Part shown: in pieces, positions 28,522 through 45,722 of the stretch
Numbering within the stretch: the first letter of the stretch is position 1
How the letters are laid out: each line of letters begins with the position of its first letter
DNA from: an uncultured bacterium
GTDB taxonomy: Bacteria; Verrucomicrobiota; Kiritimatiellia; CAIVKH01
Direction of reading: 5' to 3'
NCBI GenBank assembly: GCA_903906425.1
Contig: CAIVKH010000080.1
Coordinates: 1-64,000, forward strand
DNA: 64,000 nt
Position numbers and translations under genes: made by a program
The notes under the pieces: model-generated
Told to the model about the DNA's origin: nothing
The model's database searches: none
What the model saw: the letters and a program-made list of their open reading frames with translations, nothing else

Positions 28522-29190
28522 ATGGGTAAGGAAAAAAAGGGTCTGCGGATGTTCGCGCCGGTGGTGATCGGCCGCTACTGGCTGCTCCAAGGCATGCTCT
28601 ACATGAACCCTGCCGAGGTCCTGCACCGTCTTCTCGTCGAGTGCATCTTCGCCGTGCTCGCATGGCTCGCGTTGATGCCGCTGGAGTCTGCCGCGTGGCG
28701 GATCGGTGCGGCGCTGGCGCTTGCGCACACCGCGAACATGGTCTTCAACGGACATCTCTTCGCGCTGTTCAAACACGATCTGTACTGGTTCGGTTTTTAC
28801 AAGCGATGGGACGATTTTGCGGAATATGTCGAGACGATGCGGGAGCGGCTGCGCAGCCGGCCCTGCGCGGGCCTGAAGCGGGCCTCGATCTATGGCAGCA
28901 TCACGCGCGGCAATTTCTCCACTTCATCAGATCTCGACATCCGCTTTCTGGCGCAACCCGGTTTGATGAACGGACTCGGCGTGGCGCAGCGTGTGTTCGA
29001 GGAACGCGCGCGGGCGCTGATCGCCGGATTCCCGCTTGATCTCTACATGGTGCACTCAAGCGAAGAACTGGCGCGGAAGATCAATCTCGAAAAGGAGCGG
29101 CCGATCATTCTCTTCGACGCCACGCATCGCGGATATCCGGTGAAATTCCGCGACGCCGCGCGCCCGCAGGCGGAGGCGTGTCATGGCTAG
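28522..29190 (+). CDS. Membrane-associated nucleotidyltransferase-domain protein
   Basis: A 222-residue protein. Two hydrophobic helices lie at about 10-70; the C-terminal half holds a minimal nucleotidyltransferase motif GSITRGNFSTSSDLDI with Gly125 and the metal-binding pair Asp137/Asp139. This is the pol-beta-like superfamily (kanamycin nucleotidyltransferase/MNT-like), which transfers a nucleotide to a small molecule or protein. The N-terminal membrane segment is unusual for it. The ATG at 28522 avoids a long overlap with the kinase gene. Ends with an eight-base overlap with the Alg14-like gene. Substrate unknown. Confidence 0.7.
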   Translation: MGKEKKGLRMFAPVVIGRYWLLQGMLYMNPAEVLHRLLVECIFAVLAWLALMPLESAAWRIGAALALAHTANMVFNGHLFALFKHDLYWFGFYKRWDDFAEYVETMRERLRSRPCAGLKRASIYGSITRGNFSTSSDLDIRFLAQPGLMNGLGVAQRVFEERARALIAGFPLDLYMVHSSEELARKINLEKERPIILFDATHRGYPVKFRDAARPQAEACHG

Positions 29191-29641: not shown

Positions 29642-30108
29642 TCGTCGTTCTTCTCGGGACGAATCCCTACTCCTTCAAACGGCTGGCGTGCGCCGTGGAT
29701 GAACTCGCCGGGCGGCGGGGCTGGGACGTGTTCATGCAGACCGGATACACGGTTTGCAATCTGAGCCATTGCCGCAGCGAGCCGTTCATCCCGCTTGAGC
29801 GCGTCAGGGAACTTGTGTTCGCGTGCGATGTTTTGATCACGCAGGGTGGCGCGGGCAGCATCCACGAGGGGCTCGCCGCCGGCAAACCGGTGATCGCCGT
29901 GCCGCGCCGGCCGGAGCTGGGCGAGTCGCAGGACCGCCAGGAGGATCTCGTGGCCGCGCTCGAACGCCAGGGGCGCATCATCGCCGTGAACGACACGAAA
30001 GATCTCGAGGAGGCGATCGTGGTGGCACGAACGTTTCGCGCGGCGTCCGCGCCGGCAAACTACATTCCCATGCTGATTGGCAGCTACCTTGAAAGGTTGC
30101 AAACATGA
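29638..30108 (+). CDS. Alg13-like glycosyltransferase subunit (PssE/EpsF type)
   Basis: A 156-residue protein equal to the C-terminal donor-binding half of MurG-like enzymes: VVLLGTNPYSFKRL, then VRELVFACDVLITQGGAGSIHEGLAAGKPVIAVPRRPELGESQDRQEDLV, the sugar-nucleotide binding signature. GTG start with GGAGGAAAGG just upstream, overlapping the Alg14-like stop. Works with the preceding subunit. Its stop overlaps the GT2 start (ATGA). Confidence 0.87.
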   Translation: MIVVLLGTNPYSFKRLACAVDELAGRRGWDVFMQTGYTVCNLSHCRSEPFIPLERVRELVFACDVLITQGGAGSIHEGLAAGKPVIAVPRRPELGESQDRQEDLVAALERQGRIIAVNDTKDLEEAIVVARTFRAASAPANYIPMLIGSYLERLQT

Positions 30109-30983
30109 GCGCGTCTTCCTGCCCGCTGACGGTCATCGTCGTCGAATATTTCAGTCGGCCGCATCTCGACGGGCTGATGAATTCGCTGGCGCAATTCGAG
30201 CCCGGCGCGCCCGTCATCATCTCGTCGAACAGCGTTTATTCCGCCGAGGAAACCCGGCGGATGATCGCAGCTTTTCCCGCTGCGAAATTCATCCGCAACG
30301 AGCGCAATCTCGGTTATGCCGGCGGCGTCAACCGCGCGCTGGCGCTGGGCGAAACTCCGTACGCGGCGATCCTGAATCCCGACGTGGCGCTCACGCGCGG
30401 CATCGCTGCCAGGACGCAGGCCGTATTCGGCGGCGATGCGAAGCTCGGCATGTTCGGCCCGAAGATTCTCGACGGCGCGGGCGAGCCGACGTGCTCGTTC
30501 CGCCGGTTTTATCCTCCGCAATTCATCCTGGCCCGATATTTCGGCCTCGCAAAATTCCGCCCGTTCCGCGCCATCCCGGCGCACTACCTGATGAAAGAAA
30601 CCGGCCGTGATGCGTTCTGCTACGCCGACTGGATTTCCGGCGGCGCGATGTTTGTTCGCATGGAAGCCGCGCGCGCCGTCGGCGGAATGGACGAGCGGTA
30701 TTTTCTCTACATGGAAGACATGGACTGGTGCCGCAGTTTCTGGCGCGCGGGCTGGCGCGTCGGCTACGCGCCGGAGCCCTGCCTGATTCATCGCGCGCAA
30801 CATGCCGGCACGCGCCGCGGGCTTTCCGGCGTCTTCACGCGCGCCACGCGGCGCCAGATTCTCGGCTACGCAAAATACGTTTGCAAATGGGGCCTGCGCC
30901 GCTATGCACCTGCCGCCGACATCGAACACGGGCCGGATGGCGCGCGCGCCTCGCATCCGGTCGTGTCCGGCAATTTCCAATGA
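30105..30983 (+). CDS. Glycosyltransferase family 2 (rhamnosyltransferase-like)
   Basis: A 292-residue GT-A protein: LTVIVVEYFSRPHLDGL, FIRNERNLGYAGGVNRALALGETPYAAILNPDVALTRGI (metal-binding region), GGAMFVRMEAARAVGGMDERYFLYMEDMDWCRSFWRAGWRVGYAP (acceptor/catalytic ED motif). The family includes rhamnosyl and other hexosyl transferases. The stop codon TGA lies inside the first palindrome of doublet 7, the last two residues (FQ) being encoded by it. Confidence 0.87.
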   Translation: MSASSCPLTVIVVEYFSRPHLDGLMNSLAQFEPGAPVIISSNSVYSAEETRRMIAAFPAAKFIRNERNLGYAGGVNRALALGETPYAAILNPDVALTRGIAARTQAVFGGDAKLGMFGPKILDGAGEPTCSFRRFYPPQFILARYFGLAKFRPFRAIPAHYLMKETGRDAFCYADWISGGAMFVRMEAARAVGGMDERYFLYMEDMDWCRSFWRAGWRVGYAPEPCLIHRAQHAGTRRGLSGVFTRATRRQILGYAKYVCKWGLRRYAPAADIEHGPDGARASHPVVSGNFQ

Positions 30984-31021
30984 TTGGAAATGACGGTTGC
31001 CAGAAATTCCAATGATTGGAA
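30975..31021. repeat. Palindrome doublet 7, supplies a stop codon
   Basis: Perfect copies at 30975-30989 and 31007-31021 (both G centre), spacing 32 bp. TGA at 30981-30983 within the first copy terminates the GT2 gene. The doublet separates the glycosyltransferase genes from the RiPP-like cassette. Confidence 0.93.
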
Positions 31022-31099
31022 ACCCCGTAGAGACCTCAAAAAAATGAATCCCCGTCGCCAATCTGCCGCGCTGGAAATTTCCCGGAGGAGCCGCGTCGC

Positions 31100-32707
31100 A
31101 TGCCGGTAGGCACCAGACTCCCGGACACTGCGGACCGGCCTGCGCGGTTGCGATGGGCGCTGAATCTGGCCGCGGGCCTGGCCCCGGCGCTTCCGGCGGA
31201 TGATCGCGATGCGGAGGCTGCGCTGCAGGCGGCGGTCACATTGCCGGACGCGCACCTTCTGCCGGTCGTCGTTGCGGCATTGAAGCAGCGCGAACTGATC
31301 GGCCGGCTGCCGGCGGCGCTTCGCGAAACGATGATCCGGCGCCAGCTTGAAGCGACGGCACTTTTTCTCCGCCAGAAAGCGTGGCTGCAAAAATTTATCA
31401 GCGAGATTTTGCCTGCGGACGTGCCGGTGATGCTTCTCAAGGGCTGGGCGTTTCACGGCACGATTTATCGCGATGACGAGCCGCGCGTCGGCGGCGACAT
31501 CGATCTCCTGTTCCGCGAATGCGACTACGAACGTGTTTGCGCTCTGTTCGGAAAACTCGCGGAGCCGGTGGAACTTTACAAGGGCCGCCCCTGTTCGCGG
31601 CGCACAAGATTTGAAAACGGTTTCTGGATCGATGGCGACCACCGGCTCTGCGTCGAGCCGCACCGGTGCCTCGTGAATCCGGGCCTCGTGAAAATCGACC
31701 ACGATGCACTTTGGAAACGCAGCCTGGCGCACCCGGCGTTTGGCGATGAACGCGTGCGGATTCCGGCGGCGGAAGATGCGCTGCTCCATCTGGCGGCACA
31801 TTCGGCGATGAATCAGAACTGCGCGCCGCATACGCTGGTGGATGCGTGCCGGCTGTTGCGCGGGTGCAAGCCGGACCTCGCCGTGGTTTCATCGCGGGCG
31901 AACGAATGGGGAATAGGAGCGGTCACGAAACTGATGTTGAGCAGGGTGGGGGAGATGTTCGATATGCCGAAGCCGGCGATCGGATCGCTTTCGCCGATGC
32001 AGCGATTTCTCGGCAGGCGATGCCTCCCGGTTGACCGGCGCACGGATGACGACGACCGTCCGGCGTTTCGACTGCGGCAGATGCTTTCGCTGGGTTTGCT
32101 GGATCGCCCGCTGCTCGTGATTCCATTTCTTCTCCGGTACGCCGGCCTCCGGATACTCGATGTGATTTGTCGTCTGACCGGAAACGGAAACACGGACGCG
32201 GAATTGTCGCCGGCCGGTTCCGCAAGTTCGCGCGAATCGCAAACGCAGCCCGGGTCGCTGGCCAGCGCGGCGGACCGATATGCGATGTATCGCGGGCTGA
32301 GCATGTATCCGACGTTTCATGATCGCGACCTGGTGGTGGTCGAACCGCTCGGTTCAAGGCCGCCGCGAAAGGGCGACGTGATCTATTTCGATTCGCCATC
32401 GCGCGGCTGCCGCGTCATCCACCGGGTTATCCGGGTTCGCGCGAACTCGGTGCAAACGCAGGGCGACAGCAACGACAGGCCGGACGATTTCGAGCCGACG
32501 GCGGACTTCATCATCGGCCGCGTGGAGTCGGCCTGCCGCCCGGGGCGCGAGTGGAAAGTTGCGAATGGTTGGCGCGGCGCTTGCTTTGGTTACATCATGC
32601 GATGCCGAAACGGGCTGGCGCGGGCGGTCGCGCCGTACCGGCGGCGGAACGGTTCACGCGCGACGGCCGCGCTCGCGCTGACGGGCGCGGGAGAAGATGT
32701 GCGATGA
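31100..32707 (+). CDS. Nucleotidyltransferase (NTP_transf_5) fused to SipW/Sec11-like signal peptidase
   Basis: A 535-residue fusion. The N-terminal section (to about 360) resembles the uncharacterised nucleotidyltransferase family often found with PqqD and HPr-kinase-like proteins: VPVMLLKGWAFHGTIYRDDEPRVGGDIDLLFRECD holds the GG-D-D motif. The C-terminal section (about 390-500) is an S26/S24-type peptidase domain: nucleophile Ser401 in GLSMYPTF, a KGDVIYF strand, His441 in VIHRVIRV and Asp456 in QGDSND, a Ser-His-Asp layout like SipW/Sec11 rather than Ser-Lys LepB. No transmembrane anchor is obvious. GGAGGAG precedes the ATG. It may process the leader of the adjacent precursor, or remodel another cassette product (inference). 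Overlaps the PqqD-like gene by four bases. Confidence 0.75.
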   Translation: MPVGTRLPDTADRPARLRWALNLAAGLAPALPADDRDAEAALQAAVTLPDAHLLPVVVAALKQRELIGRLPAALRETMIRRQLEATALFLRQKAWLQKFISEILPADVPVMLLKGWAFHGTIYRDDEPRVGGDIDLLFRECDYERVCALFGKLAEPVELYKGRPCSRRTRFENGFWIDGDHRLCVEPHRCLVNPGLVKIDHDALWKRSLAHPAFGDERVRIPAAEDALLHLAAHSAMNQNCAPHTLVDACRLLRGCKPDLAVVSSRANEWGIGAVTKLMLSRVGEMFDMPKPAIGSLSPMQRFLGRRCLPVDRRTDDDDRPAFRLRQMLSLGLLDRPLLVIPFLLRYAGLRILDVICRLTGNGNTDAELSPAGSASSRESQTQPGSLASAADRYAMYRGLSMYPTFHDRDLVVVEPLGSRPPRKGDVIYFDSPSRGCRVIHRVIRVRANSVQTQGDSNDRPDDFEPTADFIIGRVESACRPGREWKVANGWRGACFGYIMRCRNGLARAVAPYRRRNGSRATAALALTGAGEDVR

Positions 32708-32988
32708 AGGGCCGGGCTTTTGCGATCGAGTATTTCGACACGGGTGCGCTGATCCTCCGCGCCGATGACGCGCGGATGATCCGACTCAATCCGACGGGCG
32801 CGGAAATTCTGCGCCTGGTCGAGTCGGGCCGTTCTGAACGGGAAATCGTTGCGGGAATCGGCCGGCTGTTCGGCATCGCAGACGAGGAGGCCGCGGAGGC
32901 GCTGGAATCGGTCCGGTCGCAGCTGATGGAACTTGGTGTGCCCTTCGCGGCGTTGCGCGATGCCGCCGCGGGCGGAGAGAGTCAATGA
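32704..32988 (+). CDS. PqqD-like peptide-binding protein
   Basis: A 94-residue protein with the PqqD winged-helix layout: a beta strand pair (ALILRADDARMIRLNPTGAEILRLVESG), then SEREIVAGIGRLFGIADEEAAEALESVRSQLMELGV. PqqD-type domains (RiPP recognition elements) bind the leader of a ribosomal peptide and present it to a radical SAM or other enzyme. It sits immediately ahead of a small peptide gene, 13 bp away, which fits this role. ATGA overlap with the upstream fusion. A second PqqD-like gene is at 33829. Confidence 0.82.
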   Translation: MKGRAFAIEYFDTGALILRADDARMIRLNPTGAEILRLVESGRSEREIVAGIGRLFGIADEEAAEALESVRSQLMELGVPFAALRDAAAGGESQ

Positions 32989-33001
32989 AGGAGACGACGA
33001 G

Positions 33002-33235
33002 ATGAGTACGAAGAAATTGAAATATGAGAAGCCGGTGGTGATGGACCTCGGCGTCGGCGAAGGCATGGGCGATTGCTTCAACGGAACGCTGATCGTCACG
33101 CCGCGCTGCCGGGCGGGCGCGTCGCCAAATCAAAACTCATCGTGCGCCAAGGGCACCTCGGCGCTGATCGGCTGCTCATCGGGAACGATCCCGCAGGATT
33201 GCAGCAACGGCGCGATCGCCACTTTCAAAACATGA
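33002..33235 (+). CDS. Candidate RiPP precursor peptide with five C-x-x-G motifs
   Basis: A 77-residue peptide. Residues 1-17 look like a leader (KLKYEKPVVMDLG contains a Y-x-x-P element like those recognised by PqqD-type domains in lasso-peptide and other systems). Residues 25-77 contain five cysteines at 25, 36, 48, 58 and 67, each in C-x-x-G-(T/A): CFNGT, CRAGA, CAKGT, CSSGT and CSNGA, spaced 9-12 residues. No membrane segment. AAGGAG lies eight bases before the ATG. Flanked by PqqD, HPr-kinase-like, PqqD and two radical SAM genes. It matches no family I recognise beyond resembling the small first proteins of SynChlorMet-type cassettes. Modification and role are inference. Confidence 0.78.
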   Translation: MSTKKLKYEKPVVMDLGVGEGMGDCFNGTLIVTPRCRAGASPNQNSSCAKGTSALIGCSSGTIPQDCSNGAIATFKT

Positions 33236-33247
33236 TGGAAGGAAAAC

Positions 33248-33294
33248 TTCCAATGATTGGAAAATGCGAGGCGGCAAACTTCCAATCATTGGAA
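33248..33294. repeat. Palindrome doublet 8
   Basis: Copies at 33248-33262 (G centre) and 33280-33294 (C centre), spacing 32 bp, exact reverse complements. It begins 12 bp past the precursor stop and lies between precursor and maturation genes, where a stem could set their relative expression. Confidence 0.93.
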
Positions 33295-33317
33295 GCCATC
33301 GTCTGGCGAACCGGGCA

Positions 33318-33839
33318 ATGACGGCACACGGCAAAAATATTCTTTTCCAGCACGCGTCCGCGGCGGAGCTGGCGGGCGGCGCGGTTTTGTTCACCGGTAA
33401 TTCCGGCGCGGGCAAGACCACGGTCATGCGGCTGATCGCGCAGACGGGCCGGCGCGTTTTCGGCGACGAGCTGGCGGTTTGTACGCGCGAGGCGGACGGT
33501 TCGTGGCTGCTGGCCGCGATGGGATCGACACGGGACGGCGAGCTGGAGCGGGCGACGAATCACGTGCCGCGGCCGGTCGCATTGATCGTCCACCTGCGGC
33601 GTCACCTGGATATTGGTTTCGCGATCCATCCGTGCCCGCCGATGGAATCCGTGGTGCTCGGCTATCAATCGATCATGGCGACGGGCCAGCACGATCCGGC
33701 CGTTCGCGCGAGCCGGTTTCGCACCTTCAGCGATTTCGCGCGGAGTGTGCCGTCGGTGATTTTGGATTTTTCATTGAATGCGGATTTTTTGCCGGCGCTC
33801 GAAAAGCGCGTGGCTGGAGGTCAGGATCATGGCAACTGA
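33318..33839 (+). CDS. HPr-kinase-like P-loop protein (ScmC-like)
   Basis: A 173-residue P-loop protein. Walker A GNSGAGKTT at residues 27-35 followed by VMRLIAQTGRRVFGDELAV, as in HPr kinase/phosphorylase domains; no N-terminal HPrK domain and no obvious HPr in the window. Such truncated HprK-like proteins recur beside PqqD and nucleotidyltransferase genes and, from memory, one is a component of the SynChlorMet cassette. It may phosphorylate a cassette protein or the peptide. Start uncertain: ATG 33318 is used, but an ATG at 33264 in the palindrome spacer is in frame. Overlaps the next PqqD-like gene by 11 bases. Confidence 0.75.
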   Translation: MTAHGKNILFQHASAAELAGGAVLFTGNSGAGKTTVMRLIAQTGRRVFGDELAVCTREADGSWLLAAMGSTRDGELERATNHVPRPVALIVHLRRHLDIGFAIHPCPPMESVVLGYQSIMATGQHDPAVRASRFRTFSDFARSVPSVILDFSLNADFLPALEKRVAGGQDHGN

Positions 33840-34113
33840 AGCAACCTATCGCAAACTGCCCGACATCGTGCTGCGCGAGGAACTCGACAGCTGGGCGCTC
33901 CTGTTCAATCCGGCCAACGGCGGCGTGGTCGGGATCAGCCCGGTCGGCGTGGCGCTGTGGCAACTTCTGGACCACCACAATACGGCGTCGGGCATGGCCT
34001 GTGCGCTGCGCGAGCGCTGCGACGACGTGCCGGCCGAGGTGGAAAACCACGTCGCCGAATATCTCCAGATGCTCTCGAAGCGCGGATTCATCGCGACGGA
34101 CGCCGCCGCGTGA
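33829..34113 (+). CDS. PqqD-like protein (ScmD-like)
   Basis: A 94-residue protein: YRKLPDIVLREELDSWALLFNPANGGVVGISPVGVALWQLLDHHNTASGMACALRERCDDVPAEVENHVAEYLQMLSKRGFI. This is the full PqqD fold with the characteristic NP..G......G..LW.LLD core. In radical SAM maturation systems it acts as the peptide chaperone. The next gene downstream encodes a radical SAM protein, the typical partner. The core (strand pair plus LW.LL helix) is distinct from the 32704 PqqD, so the two are probably not interchangeable. Confidence 0.87.
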   Translation: MATEATYRKLPDIVLREELDSWALLFNPANGGVVGISPVGVALWQLLDHHNTASGMACALRERCDDVPAEVENHVAEYLQMLSKRGFIATDAAA

Positions 34114-34159
34114 CGCCTCGCGGCGCCGCGACAGCGCATAAAATTTTCGGATCACCGGA

Positions 34160-35263
34160 ATGAGCGAAACCAACCAGCTGATGTCCACGCCGCGAACCGT
34201 GGACATCGAGATTACGCCGCGGTGCAACCTGCGTTGCTCGTACTGCTATTTCTTCGACAACCCCGGCGAGTGTTACGAGGAGCTGCCCGCGGCGGAATGG
34301 CTGCAATTCTTCGAGGAGCTTGCCGATTGCCGCGTCATGAGCGTGTGCCTTGCGGGCGGCGAACCGTTCATCCGCGCGGACCTCCGACAACTACTCGGCG
34401 GCGTCGTGAAAAACCGCATGCGATTCTCGCTGCTCTCGAATGGCGGCCTGATCGACGACGACATCGCCGCATTCCTCGCGACGACGGGCCGCTGCGACCA
34501 GGTGCAGATTTCCCTCGATGGATCGCGCGCCGAAGTCCACGACGTGTTCCGCGGCCGCGGTTCCTTCGCCGGCGCGGTGCGCGGCATCCGCACGCTGCAA
34601 CGGCACCGCGTTTCCGTCGGCGTGCGCCTGACCGTACACCGGCGCAACGTGGGCGACATCGCGGCCGCCGCGGATTTCATCCTCGGCGAACTCGGGCTGC
34701 CGTCGTTCGGAACGAATGCCGCGTCATATCTCGGCACCTGCCGGTCGCGCCAGGACGATGTCGCGCTCTCGCTCGAGGACCGCTTCACCGCGATGGAGGC
34801 GCTGCTGGCCGCGGAGAAAAAATATCCCGGCCGGATTCTCGCGCGGGCCGGCCCGCTTGCCGATGCGCGCACATGGCGGCAGATGGAACGGGCGCGGATC
34901 GACTGCGCCCCGGCGTTTCCGTCGTGCGGGCGGCTGACGGGCTGCGGCTGCGTTTTCTGGCGCATGAGCATCCGCGCCGACGGCGCGATGATTCCCTGCA
35001 CGCTGCTGCCGCACCTGACGATGGGAAGGATCAACCGCGATTCGCTGAAGGAAGTCTGGCAGAAGGCTGCGGCGCTCGCCGGAATGCGCGACCGCACTTC
35101 GATGCCGTTGAGCGAATCGCGGCACTGCGCCGGTTGCGCCTATCAATCCTATTGCACCGGCAACTGCCCGGCGCTCGCCTACACGATCACCGGCGAGGTT
35201 CATGCGCCCAGTCCCGATTCGTGCCTGCGCGACTACCTCGCAGCGGGAGGCCGGATTCCATGA
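34160..35263 (+). CDS. Radical SAM/SPASM peptide-maturation enzyme (ScmE-like)
   Basis: A 367-residue enzyme. The radical SAM cluster motif CNLRCSYC places Cys22, Cys26 and Cys29; GGEP follows (LAGGEPFIRADL), and VQISLDGSRAEVHDVFRGRGSFAGAVRGI is the typical SPASM-protein segment. The C-terminal half has many Cys (SCGRLTGCGCVFW, MIPC, HCAGCAYQSYCTGNC, SC) fitting auxiliary 4Fe-4S clusters. In the family, such enzymes install thioether or C-C crosslinks or epimerise RiPP precursors. The substrate is likely the 33002 peptide. Ends in ATGA overlap with the second radical SAM gene. Confidence 0.9.
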   Translation: MSETNQLMSTPRTVDIEITPRCNLRCSYCYFFDNPGECYEELPAAEWLQFFEELADCRVMSVCLAGGEPFIRADLRQLLGGVVKNRMRFSLLSNGGLIDDDIAAFLATTGRCDQVQISLDGSRAEVHDVFRGRGSFAGAVRGIRTLQRHRVSVGVRLTVHRRNVGDIAAAADFILGELGLPSFGTNAASYLGTCRSRQDDVALSLEDRFTAMEALLAAEKKYPGRILARAGPLADARTWRQMERARIDCAPAFPSCGRLTGCGCVFWRMSIRADGAMIPCTLLPHLTMGRINRDSLKEVWQKAAALAGMRDRTSMPLSESRHCAGCAYQSYCTGNCPALAYTITGEVHAPSPDSCLRDYLAAGGRIP

Positions 35264-36336
35264 CGACGACGCCCCCGCTGACCACGCTCTATTTGTACCT
35301 GACGGAAGGCTGCAATCTTTCATGCAAACATTGCTGGCTGAATCCGCCGTTCGATCCCGACGGCACGCGGCACGCAACGCTGCCGCTCGAACAGATCCGG
35401 CAGGTCGTGGACGAGGCGCGTCCGCTCGGCCTGAAATCGATCAAGCTCACCGGCGGCGAGGCGCTGCTGCATCCGCGCATCATGGATATCGTGGCGCTGG
35501 CAAAGGCGGAAAAGTTCGGGCTGATCATCGAGACGAACGGCGTGCTCGTGAACGATGCGCTCGTCGCCGCGCTGAAAGATCACGGCGATGTTTTCGTCTC
35601 GGTGTCGCTCGACAGCCACCGCGAGGAAGTCCACGAGGAGTTCCGTGGCAGTAAAGGCTCGTTCGGGAAGACGGTGGCCGGAATCAAAAAATTCGCGGAG
35701 GCCGGGCTGTCGCCGCAAGTCATCGGCTCGCTCATTCCGCAGAACCGGCACGAAATGCCGGAGCTGGTGCGCTTCGCGCGCGGCCTCGGCGCGGGATCGT
35801 TCAAGATGAATGTCGTGCAGCCGACGACGCGCGGCGACCAGATGCACCGGCGCGGCAACGCGGTATCGCTGCCGGAAATCCTGGAGGTCGGCCGCGATCT
35901 CGTGGACTTCGTCGGGCCGGAAACGGGCATGCGCGTTTATCCGGATTTGCCGCACGCATTCCGCCAGCTCAGCACGCTCTATCGCGATGGCGGAGGCCGC
36001 TGCACGGTGAAAAACATCATGGGCGTGCTGGCCACCGGCCGCTACGCGCTCTGCGGCATCGGCACGACCATGAAGGAACTCGTGTTCGGCGAAGTCGGCA
36101 AAGACGCGCTCGCGACGGTCTGGGAATCGCATCCGGTGCTCCGGCAGATCCGCGACGACCTGCCGCAAAAGCTCGGCGGAATCTGCGGCCGCTGCCTCAT
36201 GAAAAACCCGTGCATGGGTTCGTGCGTCGCACAAAATTTTTATCGGAAACAATCGCTCACGGCGGCCCACTGGTTCTGCGAGGCCGCAAACGAAATAGGA
36301 ATTTTTCCGGAGACGAGGATTCAGCCCGGCACGTGA
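35260..36336 (+). CDS. Radical SAM enzyme with C-terminal Cys cluster (ScmF-like)
   Basis: A 358-residue enzyme. Cluster motif CNLSCKHC gives Cys18, Cys22 and Cys25. It continues LKSIKLTGGEALLHPRIMDIVALAKAEKFGLIIETNGVLV and FVSVSLDSHREEVHEEFRGSKGSFGKTVAGIKKFAEAG. C-terminal cysteines (RCTVKN, ALCGIG, GICGRCLMKNPCMGSC, HWFCEA) fit SPASM/twitch-type clusters. It is a paralogue of the preceding gene; two such radical SAM proteins in tandem is a feature of the SynChlorMet cassette as I recall it. Start ATG overlaps the preceding stop. Stop is 11 bp before doublet 9. Confidence 0.9.
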   Translation: MTTTPPLTTLYLYLTEGCNLSCKHCWLNPPFDPDGTRHATLPLEQIRQVVDEARPLGLKSIKLTGGEALLHPRIMDIVALAKAEKFGLIIETNGVLVNDALVAALKDHGDVFVSVSLDSHREEVHEEFRGSKGSFGKTVAGIKKFAEAGLSPQVIGSLIPQNRHEMPELVRFARGLGAGSFKMNVVQPTTRGDQMHRRGNAVSLPEILEVGRDLVDFVGPETGMRVYPDLPHAFRQLSTLYRDGGGRCTVKNIMGVLATGRYALCGIGTTMKELVFGEVGKDALATVWESHPVLRQIRDDLPQKLGGICGRCLMKNPCMGSCVAQNFYRKQSLTAAHWFCEAANEIGIFPETRIQPGT

Positions 36337-36347
36337 GCGCCGGACTT

Positions 36348-36394
36348 TTCCAATGATTGGAAGCCAGCGCCGCCGGAATTTCCAATCATTGGAA
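36348..36394. repeat. Palindrome doublet 9, between convergent genes
   Basis: Copies at 36348-36362 (G centre) and 36380-36394 (C centre), spacing 32 bp, exact reverse complements. It lies 11 bp after the radical SAM stop on one side and one base after the ABC exporter stop on the other, so it cannot be a promoter element of either gene. Confidence 0.93.
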
Positions 36395-36395
36395 A

Positions 36396-38150
36396 TCACG
36401 CCGGTGGCGGCGCTGGCCGGACGGTTCCGCCTTCGACCAAAAGAATACGATCCACGTCGCGGATCACTTGTTCATGATGAGAAATGACCAGAAAAGTTGG
36501 ACGCCGCTCCATGTTTCGCAGGCGTTCCCAGATGCGCGCGCGATCCTCGCTGTCGATCCAGCTCATCGCCTCGTCGAGCACGACGATGGGCGCGGCGGAA
36601 AGCAGCGCGCGGGCGAGCGACAACCGCTGCCGCTGTCCGGCGCTGAGCTGGTCGGCGCCTTCGCCGACGCGCGCGACGAGGCCGCGCGGCAGCTGGCGGA
36701 TCGCGCCGGCCATGCGCACGGTTTCGAGCGCGCCCCAGATTTCTTCCTCGGATGCGGCGGGCCGGCCATAGGTCAGGTTCTGGCGGATGGTGCGCTGGAA
36801 CAGCGGCGCGTCCTGCGGCGCGAGCGCGACGAGGCGGCGGCCCGGCTGCGCGTTGATCGCATGGGCGTCGCGGCCGCCAACGAGAACCTGCCCGTGCCGC
36901 GGCCGGTACGAGCCGCACAGGAGATTTGCGAGCGTCGTCTTGCCGGAGCCGTTGACGCCGACGAGCCCGACAATTTCGCCGTGCCGGATGGTGAAGGAAA
37001 CATCGCCGAGGACTTTCTGGTCGGTGCGGTAGCCGAATTCCACGCCGTCGAAAATGATCGCCGGTGCCGCCGTGGATTCCGGTGCGCCCGCGGTGGGCAC
37101 GGACGAGTCGGGAGGTTCGTCGAGGATCGAACGCAGGCGGCCGGCCGCGGCGCCGATCTGGCCCATCTCGCTGGCGAGGTGGCCGAGGCGCGCCAGGGGT
37201 TGCGCCAGTTGCCAGACATAGCCCATCAGCATGAACAGGTCGCCGAGGCTGAAATCATTGCGTCCCGAAATGCGCGCGTTCACGGCGGCAACCGCCCCTG
37301 CGATGAATACCGCGACACCGCCGATGCGCGACAGGTTCGCCATGGCCGGAGAGATCCACGCGTCGTTGTAGCTTTGGAGCAGTTGAGTGTCGCGGAAACC
37401 GCGCTGGAGTTTTTCGAACCGGGCGCGCTCCGCGTCAGCCTGCCCGAAAACGCGGACCAGCCGGATGCCGCGCAGCGTGTCGAGCACGTGCAGATAAAGC
37501 CGCTTGCTGCGGGCAAACGAAAGCTGGGAGAGCCGGTGAAAACGCCGGCCGCTCCAGACCGCCAGCAGCGCGAGCAGCGGCAGCGGGGCGAGGGCGAGCA
37601 GCCCCGCCCACCACAGCGTCGAGGTGATGATGGCCAGCGCCGCGATGCCGCGCGCGACGGACTCCATGGTGGACGGCGCCAGTTCGACAAGAAACGCTGT
37701 CACTTTCCCGGGATCGCCGTAAAGCCGCCGCAGGCTTTCGCCGGCAGCGTGGCGGTCGTGGTAGGCCATGGGCAGTGTCTCGAACCGGCGATAGACCGCG
37801 TTTTCGATCTCCATGGTCACGCCGTGGACGATGCGCGACTGCTGGATCTGACGCCAAATGCCGGCAAGACCCGCAGCCAGTCGCAGCGCGGCGAGCGTTG
37901 CCAGATAGACGATCAGCAGGTGGATACTGGCACTGCCGCCCTTCGCGCCAAGTGCGTCATCGACGAGGTGGCGGTAGAACACCGGTTGAACCAGCGCGAT
38001 GGAGGCTTCGGTCGCGATCATGCACACCATGAGCAGATAGGTTTCCCGGTGCGGGCGGAGGAACGGGCGAAATGACAGCAATGTCGCCAGCAACCTTCCT
38101 GCGCGGCTTGCGGCCATTCCAAGCCGCGAACGAACCGGTGAAGTGCTCAT
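36396..38150 (-). CDS. ABC exporter, fused permease and ATPase
   Basis: About 584 residues. N-terminal six-helix transmembrane domain (about 20-320), then an ABC ATPase: Walker A VGVNGSGKTT, Q-loop LAPQDAPLFQRTI, signature LSAGQRQRLSLARALLSA, Walker B IVVLDEAMSWIDS, switch His in ISHHE. No C39 peptidase domain. This half-transporter type works as a homodimer and exports peptides, lipids or drugs. It is convergent with the radical SAM genes and divergent from the outer-membrane barrel, so it is regulated separately. Export of the mature RiPP-like product is a reasonable guess; a glycolipid is the alternative. Start is the ATG at 38150; a longer frame to 38351 lacks protein-like character. Confidence 0.85.
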   Translation of the reverse strand: MSTSPVRSRLGMAASRAGRLLATLLSFRPFLRPHRETYLLMVCMIATEASIALVQPVFYRHLVDDALGAKGGSASIHLLIVYLATLAALRLAAGLAGIWRQIQQSRIVHGVTMEIENAVYRRFETLPMAYHDRHAAGESLRRLYGDPGKVTAFLVELAPSTMESVARGIAALAIITSTLWWAGLLALAPLPLLALLAVWSGRRFHRLSQLSFARSKRLYLHVLDTLRGIRLVRVFGQADAERARFEKLQRGFRDTQLLQSYNDAWISPAMANLSRIGGVAVFIAGAVAAVNARISGRNDFSLGDLFMLMGYVWQLAQPLARLGHLASEMGQIGAAAGRLRSILDEPPDSSVPTAGAPESTAAPAIIFDGVEFGYRTDQKVLGDVSFTIRHGEIVGLVGVNGSGKTTLANLLCGSYRPRHGQVLVGGRDAHAINAQPGRRLVALAPQDAPLFQRTIRQNLTYGRPAASEEEIWGALETVRMAGAIRQLPRGLVARVGEGADQLSAGQRQRLSLARALLSAAPIVVLDEAMSWIDSEDRARIWERLRNMERRPTFLVISHHEQVIRDVDRILLVEGGTVRPAPPPA

Positions 38151-38259
38151 GGCCTTCCGCACCGGCCATTTTCCGATTCCCGATGGCGGCGGGGGATTCG
38201 GTCGCTTTTGAACAGGTACATGCTGCTTCCTCAAACGTTCCACTATACAGGTGAGAAAA

Positions 38260-39489
38260 ATGAAAACAACCATGCTGCGAATCCGTCTTTCCGCGACAGT
38301 CATTTCACTGCTCGCGCCCCTTGCGGCCTCCGCCGATCCCGGCGACGGCATCGGCGTCGGGTCCTGGCTACTCAGCCCCTACATCGACATCAACGCCACC
38401 TATGATTCGAATGTCTATAAGACCCGCGACAACGAGATCGCCGACACCTTCTTCGAACCTGAATTTGGCCTACGCATGAGTTCGTCCACCGAGACCAATC
38501 TGTTAACCCTGCGAGGAAACGCCTTCATGTCCCGCCGCGAATACTCATCGGAAAGCTCGCAGGATTTCAGTTCGTGGGGCGACAATCTGAGCCTCCAATA
38601 TGGACGGCCCGAGCACTTCACCATCGAAGGCATTCAAAGTTTCCGTCACGTACAGGACTACGACCGGCACGCCTCAGACATGGAGTCGTCCGGTCTTTCC
38701 GAAAGCATGGTGCAGGACATCCACACCCTCAGCGCGGAGCGCAACATCAACCAGATCGGTCTCGGTGCAACCCGCCGCCTCACCGACAAGACCGAGCTCA
38801 CCCTCGGGTACCGTTACTGCGACGTCCTCTATGCCAATGATCAGTTCCTCGACCTCGACGGACAGGTGGGCCAGATCGATGCGGCCTATCTCATGACCGA
38901 CAAGACCGCCGCATTCCTCAGCCTTCACGGAGGTATCCAGAATCAGGAAGGAACCGACGGATCGGCAACCTATGCCATCGCCCGCCTGGGCGCGACCACG
39001 CGCGGCTCTGATAAGATGGCATACAACGCCGGCGCCGGTATCGAGCACTACACCCGCCCCGTCGCCAGCGGCAATGAAAGTTTCGACACCTTCAACTTCA
39101 ACGTCACCGCCGACTGGTATGTCACCGAAAAAGTAACCCTGCGCTGCGGCGGCCTCAACGGCACGCAGCTATCCTCCTTTTACGAAGGCAACGGCCTCAA
39201 CTATGTCAGCGGCTGGGCCGGTGCCGGCTACCGCTGGAAACCCAGTACCATCTTATCCGTCCGTGGCATCTATCGCCGCGACAGTTATCTCGATCCCGTC
39301 CCCGACGGCAACACCACCATCGACCGTGCCGACACCCGGATTGAGGCTCACGCCCGCATCGACTACACCGCCCCCGCCAACTTCCTCAAACTCTACTTTG
39401 AAGCATCCCTGGACATCGCTGATTCAAACATCAACACTGCGGACTATGTGGACAAACGCATCATGGTCGGCGCAGAACTCCTCTATTGA
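38260..39489 (+). CDS. Outer-membrane beta-barrel protein, EPS-associated
   Basis: A 409-residue protein with an N-terminal signal peptide (LSATVISLLAPLAASADPG), then alternating amphipathic strands and polar turns through to the end. The C terminus (VDKRIMVGAELLY) ends in an aromatic residue, the usual insertion signal of outer-membrane barrels. The NATYDSNVYKTRDNEIADTFFEPEFGLR opening matches the BBP2/OMP_b-brl_2 type often found in EPS loci as the barrel partner of short Wza proteins. Likely part of the EPS export pore with the 7629 product (inference). It begins 109 bp from the divergent ABC gene. Codon style resembles the first EPS segment again. Confidence 0.78.
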   Translation: MKTTMLRIRLSATVISLLAPLAASADPGDGIGVGSWLLSPYIDINATYDSNVYKTRDNEIADTFFEPEFGLRMSSSTETNLLTLRGNAFMSRREYSSESSQDFSSWGDNLSLQYGRPEHFTIEGIQSFRHVQDYDRHASDMESSGLSESMVQDIHTLSAERNINQIGLGATRRLTDKTELTLGYRYCDVLYANDQFLDLDGQVGQIDAAYLMTDKTAAFLSLHGGIQNQEGTDGSATYAIARLGATTRGSDKMAYNAGAGIEHYTRPVASGNESFDTFNFNVTADWYVTEKVTLRCGGLNGTQLSSFYEGNGLNYVSGWAGAGYRWKPSTILSVRGIYRRDSYLDPVPDGNTTIDRADTRIEAHARIDYTAPANFLKLYFEASLDIADSNINTADYVDKRIMVGAELLY

Positions 39490-40767: not shown

Positions 40768-43497
40768 ATGAGCACTAGCATTGCCCGAATCCTTGCGAGC
40801 GTGTTGACGCTCGTCGTTTCTTCCGCCGCGGCTGCGGATTTCTACATTGCGACCGATGGCGACGACGCAAATCCAGGTTCGCAGGCCAAGCCTTTCGCTT
40901 CGCTCGAACGCGGGCGCGATGCAGTGCGCGCGCTGAAAAAAAACGGACTGCTCAAGGAGCCGGTGAATGTTTGGCTGCGCGGCGGCGTGTACCGACTGAA
41001 CAAACCGGTGGTGTTCACGCCGGCCGATTCGGGCACGGCGGACGCGCCGGTCAATTATGCGTCGCCGTCGGGCGAGCGCGCGATCTTGAGCGGCGGCGTG
41101 CGGCTCACGGGCGCGTGGCAGCAGACGCCGGGCAAGCCGTTCTTTCAACTTGAGATTCCGCAGGCGCGCGACGGCAAGTGGATTTTCAATTCTCTGTTCG
41201 TCAACGGCCAGTCGCGGACGCGGGCGCGTTATCCGAATTTCGGCGAGAAGGAACTGCGCGCCACGGGCCGCGAGCCGGGCGGTGACCCGCGGCAGGCGCT
41301 GCAATATCAGCCCGGCGATTTCAATCCGGAATGGACCAACCCGCAGGACATGGACGTGGTGTTGCTGTGCTCGTGGACGCCGACGATCCATCGCATCAAG
41401 GAAGTTTTGCCGGAGCAACGTGTGTTGCGTTTCCACAGTGCGCATGTCCGCACGGTGGATTTCTGGGAGCGCAATTTTCGCTTCTACATCAGCAACGTCT
41501 TCGAGGCGCTGGACGAACCGGGCGAGTGGTATCTGAACCGGCACACGGGAGTTCTTTATTACTTCCCGATGCCCGGCGAGGACCTCGCGACGGCGGAGGT
41601 TATCGCGCCGGTGATGAAGTCGCGCATAATCGAATTCGCGGGCGATCCGGCGGCGGGCGCGTTCATCGAGAATCTGCATTTTCGCGATCTGGCGTTTCGT
41701 CATCTCGATGGCGACATGGACCGATACAACGGCGCGTACCGGCAGGGGCACATGTATCTCGACGCGGCGATCAGCGCGCGCGGCCTGCGCAACTCCTCGT
41801 TCGAGCGATGCGAGCTTTCGCAGCTCGGCGAGTATGCGATGGAGCTGGCCGACGGCTGCGGCGACGTGACGGTGCGGCAGTGTCACTTCTGGGATCTCGG
41901 CGCGGGCGCGATGATGCTCGGCGTGACTGATCTGCCGACGCTCAAGGCATCGCCTGGCGATGCGGCTGCGGGCACCGGCCCGTGCGCTGTGCGCGGGCTG
42001 GTGATTGACAACAATTGCATCCACCGGCTCGGCACGATCTGGCACGGCTGCTACGGCATCGTGAACCGGTTCGCATCGCAGACGCAGATCACGCACAACG
42101 AAATTTTCGACACGCACTGGGATGCGATCGGCCTCGACGCGCGATGGACGTGGAAGGGCGAGAAATATGCCGGCGGAAATGTCGTGGCCTACAATCATCT
42201 CCACGATCTCGGCCTGCGCTATCAAACCGATGCGGCCGGCATCTACCAGTTCGGCCCGCTCGACACGCACATCCACCACAACCTGATCCACGGCACGTTC
42301 GCCTATCCGTATATCTGCGGCTTCGCGGGCATCTATCTCGACGAGCAATCGCGCGGCGCAGTCGTCGAAAACAATCTGGTCTATAACGTGGAGTGGTACG
42401 CTTATTTTCAAAACAAGGGCACGGACAACCTGATTCGCAACAACATCGGTGCGTTCGCGCGCAGCGGATTCATCGGGCGCGGCAGCACAGATAAAACATG
42501 GCCGTTCAACTTTTTCGAGGTCACTCGGAACATCTACATCGCCCGCGACACGCTCGGCATCGCTCAAGAATGGGGGCCGGGCACGAAGCCGCCGGTGCTG
42601 TGCGACAACATGTATTGGACGCTCGCCAAAGACGCGCCGCTGACGTTCGCGAACAAGAGTTTCGAAGCGTGGCAGGCCGCGGGACACGACACGAATTCCG
42701 TCGTCGGCGATCCCGGCTGCCGCAATCCGGCTGCGTTCGATTTTTCACTACCGCCCGACGCGCCCGCGTGCAAAAAGATCGGGTTCGTTCCGTTCGATGA
42801 TGAACTCCGCAAGGCCGGACTTTATGGCGATGCCGCGTGGCGCGAGCTGCCCAAAAACTTTCCGCCGCGCAAGCCCTCCGCAGTCTGGAGCGAAGAGGAT
42901 CTCGCGCGCTTCAACAACTTCGAACTCGATTTCAACCTCATGAAAGACGGTGCCGAGCCACCGGTGTTTCACGTCACCGACGCGAAGAATGCGGGCTTCG
43001 CCGTCACCAGCGAAATCGCCGGCACGCACGGAAAAAAATGCCTGAAATGCACCGACAAAAAAGGACTCGCGAAATCGTTCTATCCCTATCTCAACTTCGC
43101 CCCGCGCGCGCTCAAGCAAGGTTCGATCACGTTCACGTTTGCCGTGCAACAGCCCGCAACGAATGCCTCGAACATGTACATCTCGATGCGCGGCGATGCC
43201 GACGTGACCGGGCCAGCAGTCGGCATCGGCCGCGACGGTGTGGTGCAGGCCAACGGCAAGAAAATCGGCAAACTCGATCCGGGCGAGTGGACGCACTTTG
43301 AATTGCGCTTCGACCTCGGCGCGAAGAACACCGGGCACTACATACTCACAGTCCGCAATCGCGCCGGGCAAACCACGCACACGTTGCCGTTCGCGGCTCC
43401 GACCTTCAATGCCATCAAGTGGCTCGGCCTGACCACGCCCGACGCCGCCGATGGCGTGATCTACCTCGACGAACTCAAGCTGCAAATCACGGACTGA
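40768..43497 (+). CDS. Secreted right-handed beta-helix protein, carbohydrate-active candidate
   Basis: A 909-residue protein with a signal peptide (ASVLTLVVSSAAAADF). ATDGDDANPGSQAKPFASLERGRDAVRAL is the standard opening of right-handed parallel beta-helix proteins; Asn- and Asp-rich PbH1 coils follow to about residue 640 (for example NNCIHRLGTIWHGCYGIVNRFASQTQITHNEIFDTHWDAIGL and VVENNLVYNVEW). The last 220 residues form a separate sandwich-like module (GTHGKKCLKCTDKKGLAKSFYPYLNFAPRALKQGSITFTFAVQQ) that may bind carbohydrate. Such proteins are lyases or glycosidases acting on polysaccharide; the exact family is not clear. It precedes a GH28 gene, suggesting polysaccharide breakdown. Confidence 0.8.
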   Translation: MSTSIARILASVLTLVVSSAAAADFYIATDGDDANPGSQAKPFASLERGRDAVRALKKNGLLKEPVNVWLRGGVYRLNKPVVFTPADSGTADAPVNYASPSGERAILSGGVRLTGAWQQTPGKPFFQLEIPQARDGKWIFNSLFVNGQSRTRARYPNFGEKELRATGREPGGDPRQALQYQPGDFNPEWTNPQDMDVVLLCSWTPTIHRIKEVLPEQRVLRFHSAHVRTVDFWERNFRFYISNVFEALDEPGEWYLNRHTGVLYYFPMPGEDLATAEVIAPVMKSRIIEFAGDPAAGAFIENLHFRDLAFRHLDGDMDRYNGAYRQGHMYLDAAISARGLRNSSFERCELSQLGEYAMELADGCGDVTVRQCHFWDLGAGAMMLGVTDLPTLKASPGDAAAGTGPCAVRGLVIDNNCIHRLGTIWHGCYGIVNRFASQTQITHNEIFDTHWDAIGLDARWTWKGEKYAGGNVVAYNHLHDLGLRYQTDAAGIYQFGPLDTHIHHNLIHGTFAYPYICGFAGIYLDEQSRGAVVENNLVYNVEWYAYFQNKGTDNLIRNNIGAFARSGFIGRGSTDKTWPFNFFEVTRNIYIARDTLGIAQEWGPGTKPPVLCDNMYWTLAKDAPLTFANKSFEAWQAAGHDTNSVVGDPGCRNPAAFDFSLPPDAPACKKIGFVPFDDELRKAGLYGDAAWRELPKNFPPRKPSAVWSEEDLARFNNFELDFNLMKDGAEPPVFHVTDAKNAGFAVTSEIAGTHGKKCLKCTDKKGLAKSFYPYLNFAPRALKQGSITFTFAVQQPATNASNMYISMRGDADVTGPAVGIGRDGVVQANGKKIGKLDPGEWTHFELRFDLGAKNTGHYILTVRNRAGQTTHTLPFAAPTFNAIKWLGLTTPDAADGVIYLDELKLQITD

Positions 43498-43588
43498 ATC
43501 CCGATGAAAACGAATCTTGCAGAATCGTCGCAAGTCCACTCGCTCTGGATCGCGCAGCACACGCAAAAGAGAAAAGCGAATTCGCGGC

Positions 43589-43635
43589 TTCCAATGATTG
43601 GAAATTTGCGCGACGGAATCTTCCAATGATTGGAA
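43589..43635. repeat. Palindrome doublet 12
   Basis: Perfect copies at 43589-43603 and 43621-43635 (both G centre), spacing 32 bp, 17 bp before the GH28 start codon. Confidence 0.93.
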
Positions 43636-43652
43636 AAGATCGGAGACGATGA

Positions 43653-45722
43653 ATGAAAAGAAAAATGTCGTTGGTGCTCGCCCTGATTCTTCCGGCGTTT
43701 CTAGCAACTGCCTCCGACGTGAACGTCAAGACGTGCGGCGCGGTTGGCGATGGAGTCGCGCTGGACACGGCCGCGATCCAGGGCGCGATCAATTCGTGCG
43801 CGACGGGCGGCGGCGGTCGCGTCGTTTTTCCTGCGGGCCGTTACCTGGCCGGTTCGTTGCGGCTCGCATCGGGCGTCACGCTTGTCGTCACGCCGCAGGC
43901 GACGATCGTTGGAAGCAAATCCATACACGATTATTCGTCCGGCAATCTTCTCGATGCAACCAGTGCCGCGAACATCGGCATCGAGGGCGGCGGCGTCATT
44001 GACGGGCAGGGCGAATCGTTCTGGGAAAAGAAATCAACCGAATACAAAGGGCCGGAGTGGCGCAAGACCGCACAGTTCGATTATAGCGCGCTCAAACGGC
44101 CGTCGTTCCTTCATTTCATTCGCTGCACGAACGTCGTCTTGCGCGACATCACGCTGTCGAATTCGCCTTCGTGGACCGTACACATGCAGCGATGCGTTTC
44201 GGCCACCGTCGAGCGCGTGACCATTCGCAATCCGCTCTACGGGCCGAACACCGACGGCATTGACCTCAATTCCTGTATCGGCGTACGCGTCCGTGATTGC
44301 GACATCATCACCGGCGACGATGGCGTCGTGCTCAAGAGCAGCGAGCCCGGCCACGATCATCCGTCGCGCGACATCCGTGTTGAGAATTGCCGCATCTGGT
44401 CCGCCTGTAACGCACTCAAGATCGGCACCGAAACGCACGACAGTTTTGACGACATCCAGTTTCGCGATTGCCAGTTCTGTTGCGATTCCGCGCGCATGAT
44501 GGACCGTCCGCTGTCCGGAATCGCCATCGAATCCGTGGACGGTTCGCATCTCTCCAACATCGTCGCATCGAACATCACGATGACCAATGTCCGCACGCCG
44601 ATCTTCATCCGCCTCGGCCATCGCGGCGGCAACAGCGAACACACGCGGCAGGTGGAGCCGCGCGTTCCGGGAACCATCGAGAACGTGGTCCTCCGCAACA
44701 TCACGGCGAGCCATTCGCTGTTCGAATCGTCCATCAACGGCATCCCGGGGCATCCCGTGCGGAACGTCACGCTCGCCGACATCAAGCTGGAGTACGAGGG
44801 CGGCGGCGAACCGGACTGGGTGACGGACGACGTGCCGGACAAACCGATGATCACAAAATATCCCGAATCCCAGATGTTCGGCCGCCTGCCCGCTTATGGA
44901 CTTTATGTCCGCCACGCCGACGGCCTCCGCGTGACCAACGTCGCAATCCGCTGCCTGCGCGAGGATGCGCGCCCTGCGCTGGTCTGCGACGACGCGAACA
45001 ACGTCGAACTCGACGCGCTGAATATCGCTGCTGCTCCCGCAAACTTTCCCGTCCTCTGGTTCATCAACACCAGCAGCGCCGCCGTCCGCCGCTGCATCGC
45101 GCCAGCGGGGACGAAGACTTTTCTCGCCGTCGAATCGCCGGCGAATGGCGATGCGGTCATGGAAGCGAACGACCTGACGAAAGCTACAAGGCCACTCATG
45201 ATTCTGAAACGAGGAGAACTCCTGACCAAGGAGTTGCCTGAGTTCGCTGAACGCTCGCCCGGCATCATCACGATTCCAGCGGAAAAAATGCGCCTTGCCC
45301 ATCCGATGGCCGTCGTCACCGATTCCGTGCTTCCGTCAGGCCGCGCCATCGAAGTGCCGATTACCGGCGGACGCGAATCCGGCTCGGCGCGTTGCCGCTT
45401 CAAGATCGCGGAAGCTGGCGATTACGTCATCTGGATTCACGCTTTCGCACCTTCCGCCGAATCAGACAGCTTCTACGCAAAGATCGACGCCGGCGAACCC
45501 GTGTTGACCGATTTGTCGAAACAGGGCGCGTGGAACTGGGATCGCGTGCGTGAACGCATCGCCGACAAGCCATCGCTGAAATCGTACAAGACGTTCCATC
45601 TCGCCGCCGGCGAACATGTGCTGACCCTCCGCAACCGCGAAAGCGGCACGCGCATCGGCACGCTGGCGGTTGCGAGAAAGGACATCCCCTTCGATCCATC
45701 GCGCGATTTCAAGGGAGATTGA
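43653..45722 (+). CDS. GH28 polygalacturonase-like secreted enzyme
   Basis: A 689-residue protein with a signal peptide (LVLALILPAFLATASDV). DVNVKTCGAVGDGVALDTAAIQGAI is the GH28 opening; the active-site run contains NTDGIDLNSC (Asp), TGDDGVVLKSS (Asp-Asp) and, later, ALKIGTE. The canonical GHG motif is replaced by EPGHDHPS, so substrate or activity may deviate. A C-terminal extension of about 170 residues (AHPMAVVTDSVLPSGRAIEVPITGG onwards) looks like a beta-sandwich carbohydrate-binding module. GH28 enzymes hydrolyse polygalacturonan or rhamnogalacturonan. With KduD at 52584 this suggests pectin/uronate use. Start ATG is preceded by a GGAGA site. Confidence 0.87.
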   Translation: MKRKMSLVLALILPAFLATASDVNVKTCGAVGDGVALDTAAIQGAINSCATGGGGRVVFPAGRYLAGSLRLASGVTLVVTPQATIVGSKSIHDYSSGNLLDATSAANIGIEGGGVIDGQGESFWEKKSTEYKGPEWRKTAQFDYSALKRPSFLHFIRCTNVVLRDITLSNSPSWTVHMQRCVSATVERVTIRNPLYGPNTDGIDLNSCIGVRVRDCDIITGDDGVVLKSSEPGHDHPSRDIRVENCRIWSACNALKIGTETHDSFDDIQFRDCQFCCDSARMMDRPLSGIAIESVDGSHLSNIVASNITMTNVRTPIFIRLGHRGGNSEHTRQVEPRVPGTIENVVLRNITASHSLFESSINGIPGHPVRNVTLADIKLEYEGGGEPDWVTDDVPDKPMITKYPESQMFGRLPAYGLYVRHADGLRVTNVAIRCLREDARPALVCDDANNVELDALNIAAAPANFPVLWFINTSSAAVRRCIAPAGTKTFLAVESPANGDAVMEANDLTKATRPLMILKRGELLTKELPEFAERSPGIITIPAEKMRLAHPMAVVTDSVLPSGRAIEVPITGGRESGSARCRFKIAEAGDYVIWIHAFAPSAESDSFYAKIDAGEPVLTDLSKQGAWNWDRVRERIADKPSLKSYKTFHLAAGEHVLTLRNRESGTRIGTLAVARKDIPFDPSRDFKGD

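Follow-up and report, generated by a model that had tools for sequence, protein, structure and literature searches.

Among the closest described systems to the cassette analysed here, which occupies positions 31100-36336 of a 64,000-nucleotide stretch of contig CAIVKH010000080.1 (the window; from an uncultured bacterium of the class Kiritimatiellia, Verrucomicrobiota), are the linear polyphosphorylated peptides (LPPs) and SynChlorMet (Scm), a ribosomally synthesized and post-translationally modified peptide (RiPP) system. LPPs were described in a 2026 study from LppA-K-B-S-D-N gene sets that encode an archaeal-type signal peptidase, a discrete RiPP recognition element (RRE), an HprK-like kinase, a nucleotidyltransferase (NTP transferase) and an MsbA-like exporter, and they were reported as restricted to Bacillota (PMC13381572). 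In these clusters the YxxP of the leader binds the discrete RRE, the S26-like LppS removes the leader, and the HprK-like LppK puts several phosphates on one serine; the clusters sit in capsular polysaccharide loci, as do those of paeninodin (PMC13381572). The text of that study mentions neither radical S-adenosylmethionine (SAM) enzymes nor SynChlorMet (PMC13381572). Pseudomycoidin is a lasso peptide whose nucleotidyltransferase-like gene, psmN, is required for the addition of a hexose to phosphoserine (PMC9266682). For SynChlorMet itself, a search of a 5.4-million-paper library found no publication under that name, and the system seems to be represented by NCBI models alone; searches on ScmE/ScmF, archaeal radical SAM RiPPs and CxxG ranthipeptides likewise returned nothing on it.

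Judged from its sequence, the window cassette appears to be a complete SynChlorMet gene set for a modified peptide, and it is probably joined to an LPP-type maturation module in a single hybrid pathway. The order of seven genes claimed in an earlier note on this DNA (nucleotidyltransferase-peptidase fusion, PqqD, 77-residue peptide, HPr-kinase-like protein, PqqD and two radical SAM enzymes) was confirmed throughout by the open reading frame (ORF) list and by profile scans with the Scm models (NCBIfam TIGR04248-TIGR04252, with curated cut-offs) and Pfam; all seven genes lie at the positions given there, closely spaced on the forward strand. The resemblance to SynChlorMet that the same note had proposed is supported by the two radical SAM/SPASM enzymes, ScmE (34160-35263; TIGR04250, 536 bits, cut-off 400) and ScmF (35260-36336, with an ATG start at 35260; TIGR04251, 418 bits, cut-off 400). 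They are preceded by a ScmD-like PqqD-type RRE (33829-34113; PF05402, 45.6 bits), for which TIGR04248 is the best model at 83 bits (cut-off 100). Upstream of it lie an ORF for a predicted HprK-fold kinase (33318-33839; Walker A motif GNSGAGKTT), whose called start, 33264, falls within an intergenic repeat, and the ScmA-like precursor gene (33002-33235). The cassette opens with a 535-residue fusion of a PF14907 NTP_transf_5 domain (91 bits, residues 50-287) to an archaeal-type S26 signal peptidase (31100-32707), followed by a first PqqD-type RRE, PqqD1 (32704-32988; PF05402, 38 bits), whose nearest models are lasso-type PqqD proteins (NF033530, 28 bits). The S26 part (residues ~391-476) has Ser401 in GLSMYP, His441 in VIHRV and a GDSND box, and it scores slightly under the cut-off of TIGR02228 (47.6 against 51.85 bits) and slightly over that of PF10502 (23.2 against 22.9 bits). 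Adjoining the cassette on the opposite strand is a convergent MsbA-type ABC (ATP-binding cassette) exporter (36396-38351, start probably nearer 38147), which the earlier note had left out. The window shares ScmE and ScmF with the SynChlorMet models and has probable counterparts of three others in a ScmD-like PqqD, an HprK-fold protein (for ScmC) and a short precursor (for ScmA); it differs in that ScmD, ScmC (25 bits, cut-off 125) and ScmA (6.7 bits, cut-off 35) remain under their cut-offs, and in the extra PqqD and the PF14907-S26 fusion. No model named ScmB was matched among the scanned proteins of the window or of its sister locus L203.

The 77-residue product of the precursor gene has the leader KYEKPVVMDLG and five core cysteines (25, 36, 48, 58 and 67), each of which opens a CxxG unit, a pattern matched in 1 of 200,000 shuffles. 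No family is reached over its cut-off, the sole match being the weak one to TIGR04252 (SCM_precur_ScmA). The ORF did not arise by chance: all its cysteines are in CxxG, and equivalents are found beside most ScmE genes elsewhere. A search of the genome of the window gave no convincing further precursor copies.

Peptides of this kind first appeared on inspection of eight named ScmE loci, where neighbouring ORFs carry a YxxP leader and repeated CxxG. Further ScmE contigs were gathered by whole-genome searches of several lineages, with Brocadiaceae added. A strong ScmE match was found in 16 of 388 genomes of the phylum of the window (8 over the cut-off), in 30 of 155 genomes of the class of a Syntrophus genome, and in 16 of 232 genomes of the class to which a Methanomicrobiales genome belongs. 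The statistics exclude weaker ScmE-like loci (L158-L164, at most 334 bits). Under a strict rule (YxxP or WxxP, at least 3 CxxG within 60 residues, and at least 60% of cysteines in CxxG), 61 peptides were found in 40 of 65 Scm contigs, one of which is counted twice (L041 = L190) and some of which are pairs from one genome, against 1 of 72 controls, a GC-rich false match. Other radical SAM/SPASM loci that the same scan had returned served as controls, and their lineage make-up differs from that of the Scm loci. A relaxed rule (C-x(2,3)-G) found the peptide in 40 of the 46 Scm contigs that are 12 kb or longer, including one spurious match to a SPASM domain (L207), and in 1 of 48 controls; these are simple ORF rules, by which precursors on short contigs could be missed. 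Orthologous loci do, then, carry the small peptide gene whose absence, together with a failure of the Scm models to match, the earlier note had named as grounds for abandoning its proposal. CxxG peptides stand beside ScmE in Verrucomicrobiota, Planctomycetota, Syntrophia and other deltaproteobacteria, and methanogenic archaea. Comparison of these loci, about 60 from bacteria and archaea, shows that the precursor combines a YxxP leader with CxxG repeats and that the enzyme genes stay together across phyla.

Among 64 distinct precursors with 487 cysteines, 412 cysteines are in CxxG and 52 in CxxxG, shares that are partly set by the selection rule. Two features were not selected for: gaps of 10 or 11 residues between successive cysteines (290 of 425), and an A, P or V at position +6 from the cysteine in 77% of CxxG units. 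The repeat follows the clear rule C-x-x-G-x-x-(A/P/V) with a period of 10-11, and the comparison so provides a defined precursor family. Leaders end in AYA/AHA/AFA, GYG, GVGA or KGxG. The class itself has already been modelled by NCBI; of 45 precursors tested, TIGR04252 matches only 11 with E<=0.01, the best having E 2.5e-7, and the family is therefore wider than the ScmA model. Several loci depart from the simple arrangement. L220 and L221, from the methanogen class, have five and eight CxxG precursors, several of which adjoin their own PqqD genes, and most of which end in a C-terminal serine (GSS, DSS, HFS, ISSS), recalling the phosphorylated C-terminal serine of paeninodin. In L045 (12373-13032) a CxxG precursor has a tail of ~120 residues rich in Gly, Ser, Lys and Glu behind the repeats.

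Freyrasin is a ranthipeptide with repeated CX3D, and its PapA/PapB system shares with the window a SPASM radical SAM enzyme and a regularly repeated cysteine motif in the core. It differs in the motif (CX3D, against CxxG with A/P/V at +6), and the window has two SPASM enzymes, of which ScmE scores 94 bits with the PapB model, under its cut-off of 340. ScmE and ScmF might instead carry out non-thioether chemistry, such as C-C or ether links, epimerisation or cysteine oxidation, with the cysteines serving as disulfides or metal ligands. Such chemistry would agree with the loose choice of residues between successive cysteines and with the distant similarity of both enzymes to models of several chemistries (WgkB, GeoRSP, NirJ, PapB, StsB and mycofactocin maturase); we regard it as possible but rather doubtful, given that nearly all cysteines are in fixed CxxG units with 10-11 spacing in bacteria and archaea alike, resembling the CX3D repeats of freyrasin. 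Thioether cross-links seem the most likely product.

The remaining genes bring the locus close to the LPPs. By sequence the kinase ORF gave only weak matches to ScmC and to HprK_rel_A (25 bits each), and PDB sequence searches with the kinase, PqqD1 and the precursor profile returned nothing useful. The HPr-kinase-like call made earlier was borne out by an AlphaFold2 model (predicted local distance difference test, pLDDT, 82; predicted TM-score, pTM, 0.80), for which the top Foldseek matches in the PDB are HprK/P structures (1kkm, 1kkl and 2qmh; E ~1e-5). In L203, from the clade nearest to the window (order ScmA-ScmD-ScmE-ScmF-S26-ScmC-ABC-PF14907), the kinase and PqqD proteins exceed the cut-offs of ScmC (205 bits, cut-off 125) and ScmD (113 bits, cut-off 100), and the window ORF aligns to the C-terminal part of homologues that score with ScmC, this one among them. 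ScmC is therefore predicted to be an HprK-fold kinase-type protein, with the window ORF as a compact, divergent form.

Searches with iterated profiles recovered the same companions in most of the 46 Scm contigs with a length of 12 kb or more: PqqD in all 46, an HprK-like protein in 41, PF14907 in 36, S26 in 26 and an ABC exporter in 29, compared with 1, 0, 0, 1 and 8 of the 48 controls. At least two PqqD ORFs are present in 22 of 61 loci, so that the extra PqqD, which the earlier note had counted with the peptidase fusion as an addition, is not peculiar to the window. S26 and NTP_transf_5 are also usual Scm companions, and what stands of that claim is that their order within the fusion is unusual; in L155 the order is reversed (S26-PF14907). 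S26-HprK fusions, in both orders, occur in six loci (L046, L154, L205, L206, L211 and L226), and domain fusions of this kind would bind S26, PF14907 and HprK together as one predicted module.

With the LPPs the window shares the archaeal-type S26 peptidase, the discrete PqqD/RRE, the HprK-like kinase, the NTP transferase, the MsbA-like exporter, the YxxP leader and the polysaccharide locus. It differs in its CxxG-repeat core, in its radical SAM enzymes and in its leader, since YEKPVVMDLGVGEGMGD has the YxxP alone in common with the LPP motif YxxPxVLxHQxIxFETxxS. Since the operon encodes two radical SAM/SPASM enzymes, the product would not be a linear peptide made without ring-forming enzymes, as LPPs are. 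Because the LPP set is present in the window and in most Scm loci, together with ScmD, ScmE, ScmF and a CxxG peptide, we read the Scm system as a probable radical SAM relative of the LPPs, from which its leader motif and its ring-forming enzymes nevertheless set it apart. The PF14907 and S26 domains of the fusion are candidate equivalents of LppN and LppS. The MsbA-like protein is, after LppD, the likely peptide exporter, and from the shared parts we infer LPP-like leader removal and phosphorylation. The comparison also supplies Scm with a probable leader peptidase and exporter, proposed by analogy with the experimentally studied LPPs, and an LPP-type maturation set reported as Bacillota-only is widened to four other lineages, including archaea.

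Paeninodin and pseudomycoidin resemble the window in having an HprK-like kinase and a nucleotidyltransferase that act on a RiPP with a YxxP/WxxP leader. A lasso-peptide cluster would account for the leader, the kinase, PF14907 and a discrete PqqD with a lasso-type score (28 bits). It is very improbable beside two SPASM radical SAM enzymes over Scm cut-offs and a cysteine-rich, repeated core, and it was rejected: no macrolactam cyclase and no B2 leader peptidase were found among the genes at 30105-39489, where the window has radical SAM enzymes instead.

In the hybrid Scm-LPP pathway that we favour, ScmD and the other PqqD protein would bind the YxxP leader and pass the precursor to ScmE and ScmF, whose radical chemistry on the regularly spaced cysteine units would most likely form thioether cross-links of the ranthipeptide or sactipeptide kind. 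The HprK-fold kinase would phosphorylate a serine or threonine of the precursor, the PF14907 domain might add a nucleotidyl or sugar group onto the phosphate, and the fused S26 domain would cleave off the leader. The product would then be exported by the MsbA-like pump, in the window alongside the exopolysaccharide system; its attachment to polysaccharide is possible and is not assumed. The comparison also provides compact Scm loci for expression, and the system becomes directly testable in the laboratory.

Several observations weigh against this pathway. To our knowledge, no Scm locus has a known product, expression or enzyme activity. The nearest models of ScmE and ScmF span several chemistries, so the type of cross-link is not readable from sequence, and an AlphaFold2 model of a nine-repeat precursor was disordered (pLDDT 40) and uninformative on shape. 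Nothing in the window peptide obviously corresponds to the fixed phospho-acceptor of LPPs. Four loci with both ScmE and ScmF (L038, L039, L156 and L157) have no CxxG precursor within 10 kb, and a search for a conserved small ORF in them gave off-frame reads only; this clade may use another substrate. Finally, deletion of LppN had no effect in the LPP study (PMC13381572), and the role of PF14907 is therefore not fixed by the LPP analogy. The same four loci, a clade in the class of the window, have a PqqD-ScmE fusion, a tandem PqqD-PqqD protein and a ScmF beside a nucleotide-sugar dehydratase-like gene.

In a tree of ScmE, the window pairs with L155, from the same class (support 93/64), within a well-supported clade of eight (100/97) that also holds Desulfobacterota, Brocadiaceae and another Verrucomicrobiota sequence. 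Lateral transfer of ScmE is indicated by this tree, because group labels change 11 times on it against a minimum of four. Few genomes of the class of the window have ScmE; viral contigs gave two weak partial matches only, which are not Scm.

The cassette begins where a complete Wzx/Wzy-type exopolysaccharide cluster on the forward strand (7560-30983) ends. This cluster includes a Wza-like Poly_export gene (7560), Wzy_C (8360), a Wzz/tyrosine kinase (9806), a UDP-sugar dehydrogenase (12082), Wzx (17339) and many glycosyltransferases, with Alg14 at 29183 and GT2 at 30105. Downstream of the exporter is a BBP2_2 outer-membrane beta-barrel (PF10082; 38251-39489, forward strand). The setting noticed earlier, with glycosyltransferases upstream and a barrel downstream, is thus real, and the polysaccharide context recurs: Wza and Wzz lie within ~10 kb of 8 of the 46 Scm loci and of none of the 48 controls, although the eight are mostly related deltaproteobacterial loci and would represent few independent events. 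Among the scanned neighbours are eight polysaccharide export proteins of the XrtA/PEP-CTERM type and eight ATPases of the PEP-CTERM type; L042 also has an exosortase. In most Scm loci (31 of 46) no polysaccharide genes were detected within ~10 kb. The cassette could accordingly be an independent secreted-peptide pathway, for example antimicrobial or signalling, whose adjacency to polysaccharide genes has no functional meaning. Besides those 31 loci, the intergenic repeats that bound the cassette, the convergent exporter and the place of the window among Desulfobacterota, Brocadiaceae and Verrucomicrobiota in the ScmE tree, a sign of lateral transfer, favour independence; the recurrence of Wza and Wzz, of the XrtA/PEP-CTERM type, and the capsular setting of the published LPP and paeninodin clusters speak for a connection. 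Independence is in our judgement a serious possibility, if a little short of an even one. The linkage, seen in the window, in 8 of 46 Scm loci and in the published LPP loci, is suggestive and no more, and attachment of the peptide to a polysaccharide, which the earlier note had raised, is a hypothesis. It would be bolder still, and is unlikely, that Scm forms one large RiPP class of anaerobic bacteria and methanogenic archaea, in which the two radical SAM enzymes make a multiply cross-linked chain from the ten-residue CxxG repeats and the kinase and PF14907 transferase then add a tag through a phosphate-sugar link, so that the peptide ends up exposed on extracellular polysaccharide or bound to it.

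Downstream of the barrel, at 40768-45722, are two right-handed beta-helix proteins (one with a GH141-like domain, the other GH28) that are possibly polysaccharide-degrading. The intergenic repeats are twin palindromes (TTCCAATGATTGGAA twice, 32 bp apart), located between the GT2 gene and the cassette (30975-31021), between the precursor and kinase genes (33248-33294), and between ScmF and the convergent exporter (36348-36394). Sixteen pairs of the palindrome TTCCAATSATTGGAA occur in the window between 2830 and 62690, at gene boundaries (e.g., 30975/31007, 33248/33280 and 36348/36380), with copies 32-33 bp apart and a variable spacer. The whole genome has 1016 pairs (~1 per 6.5 kb), compared with 0 to 71 in 37 relatives and none expected by shuffling, and the pairs have the look of a twin binding site or repeat element spread over the whole genome.

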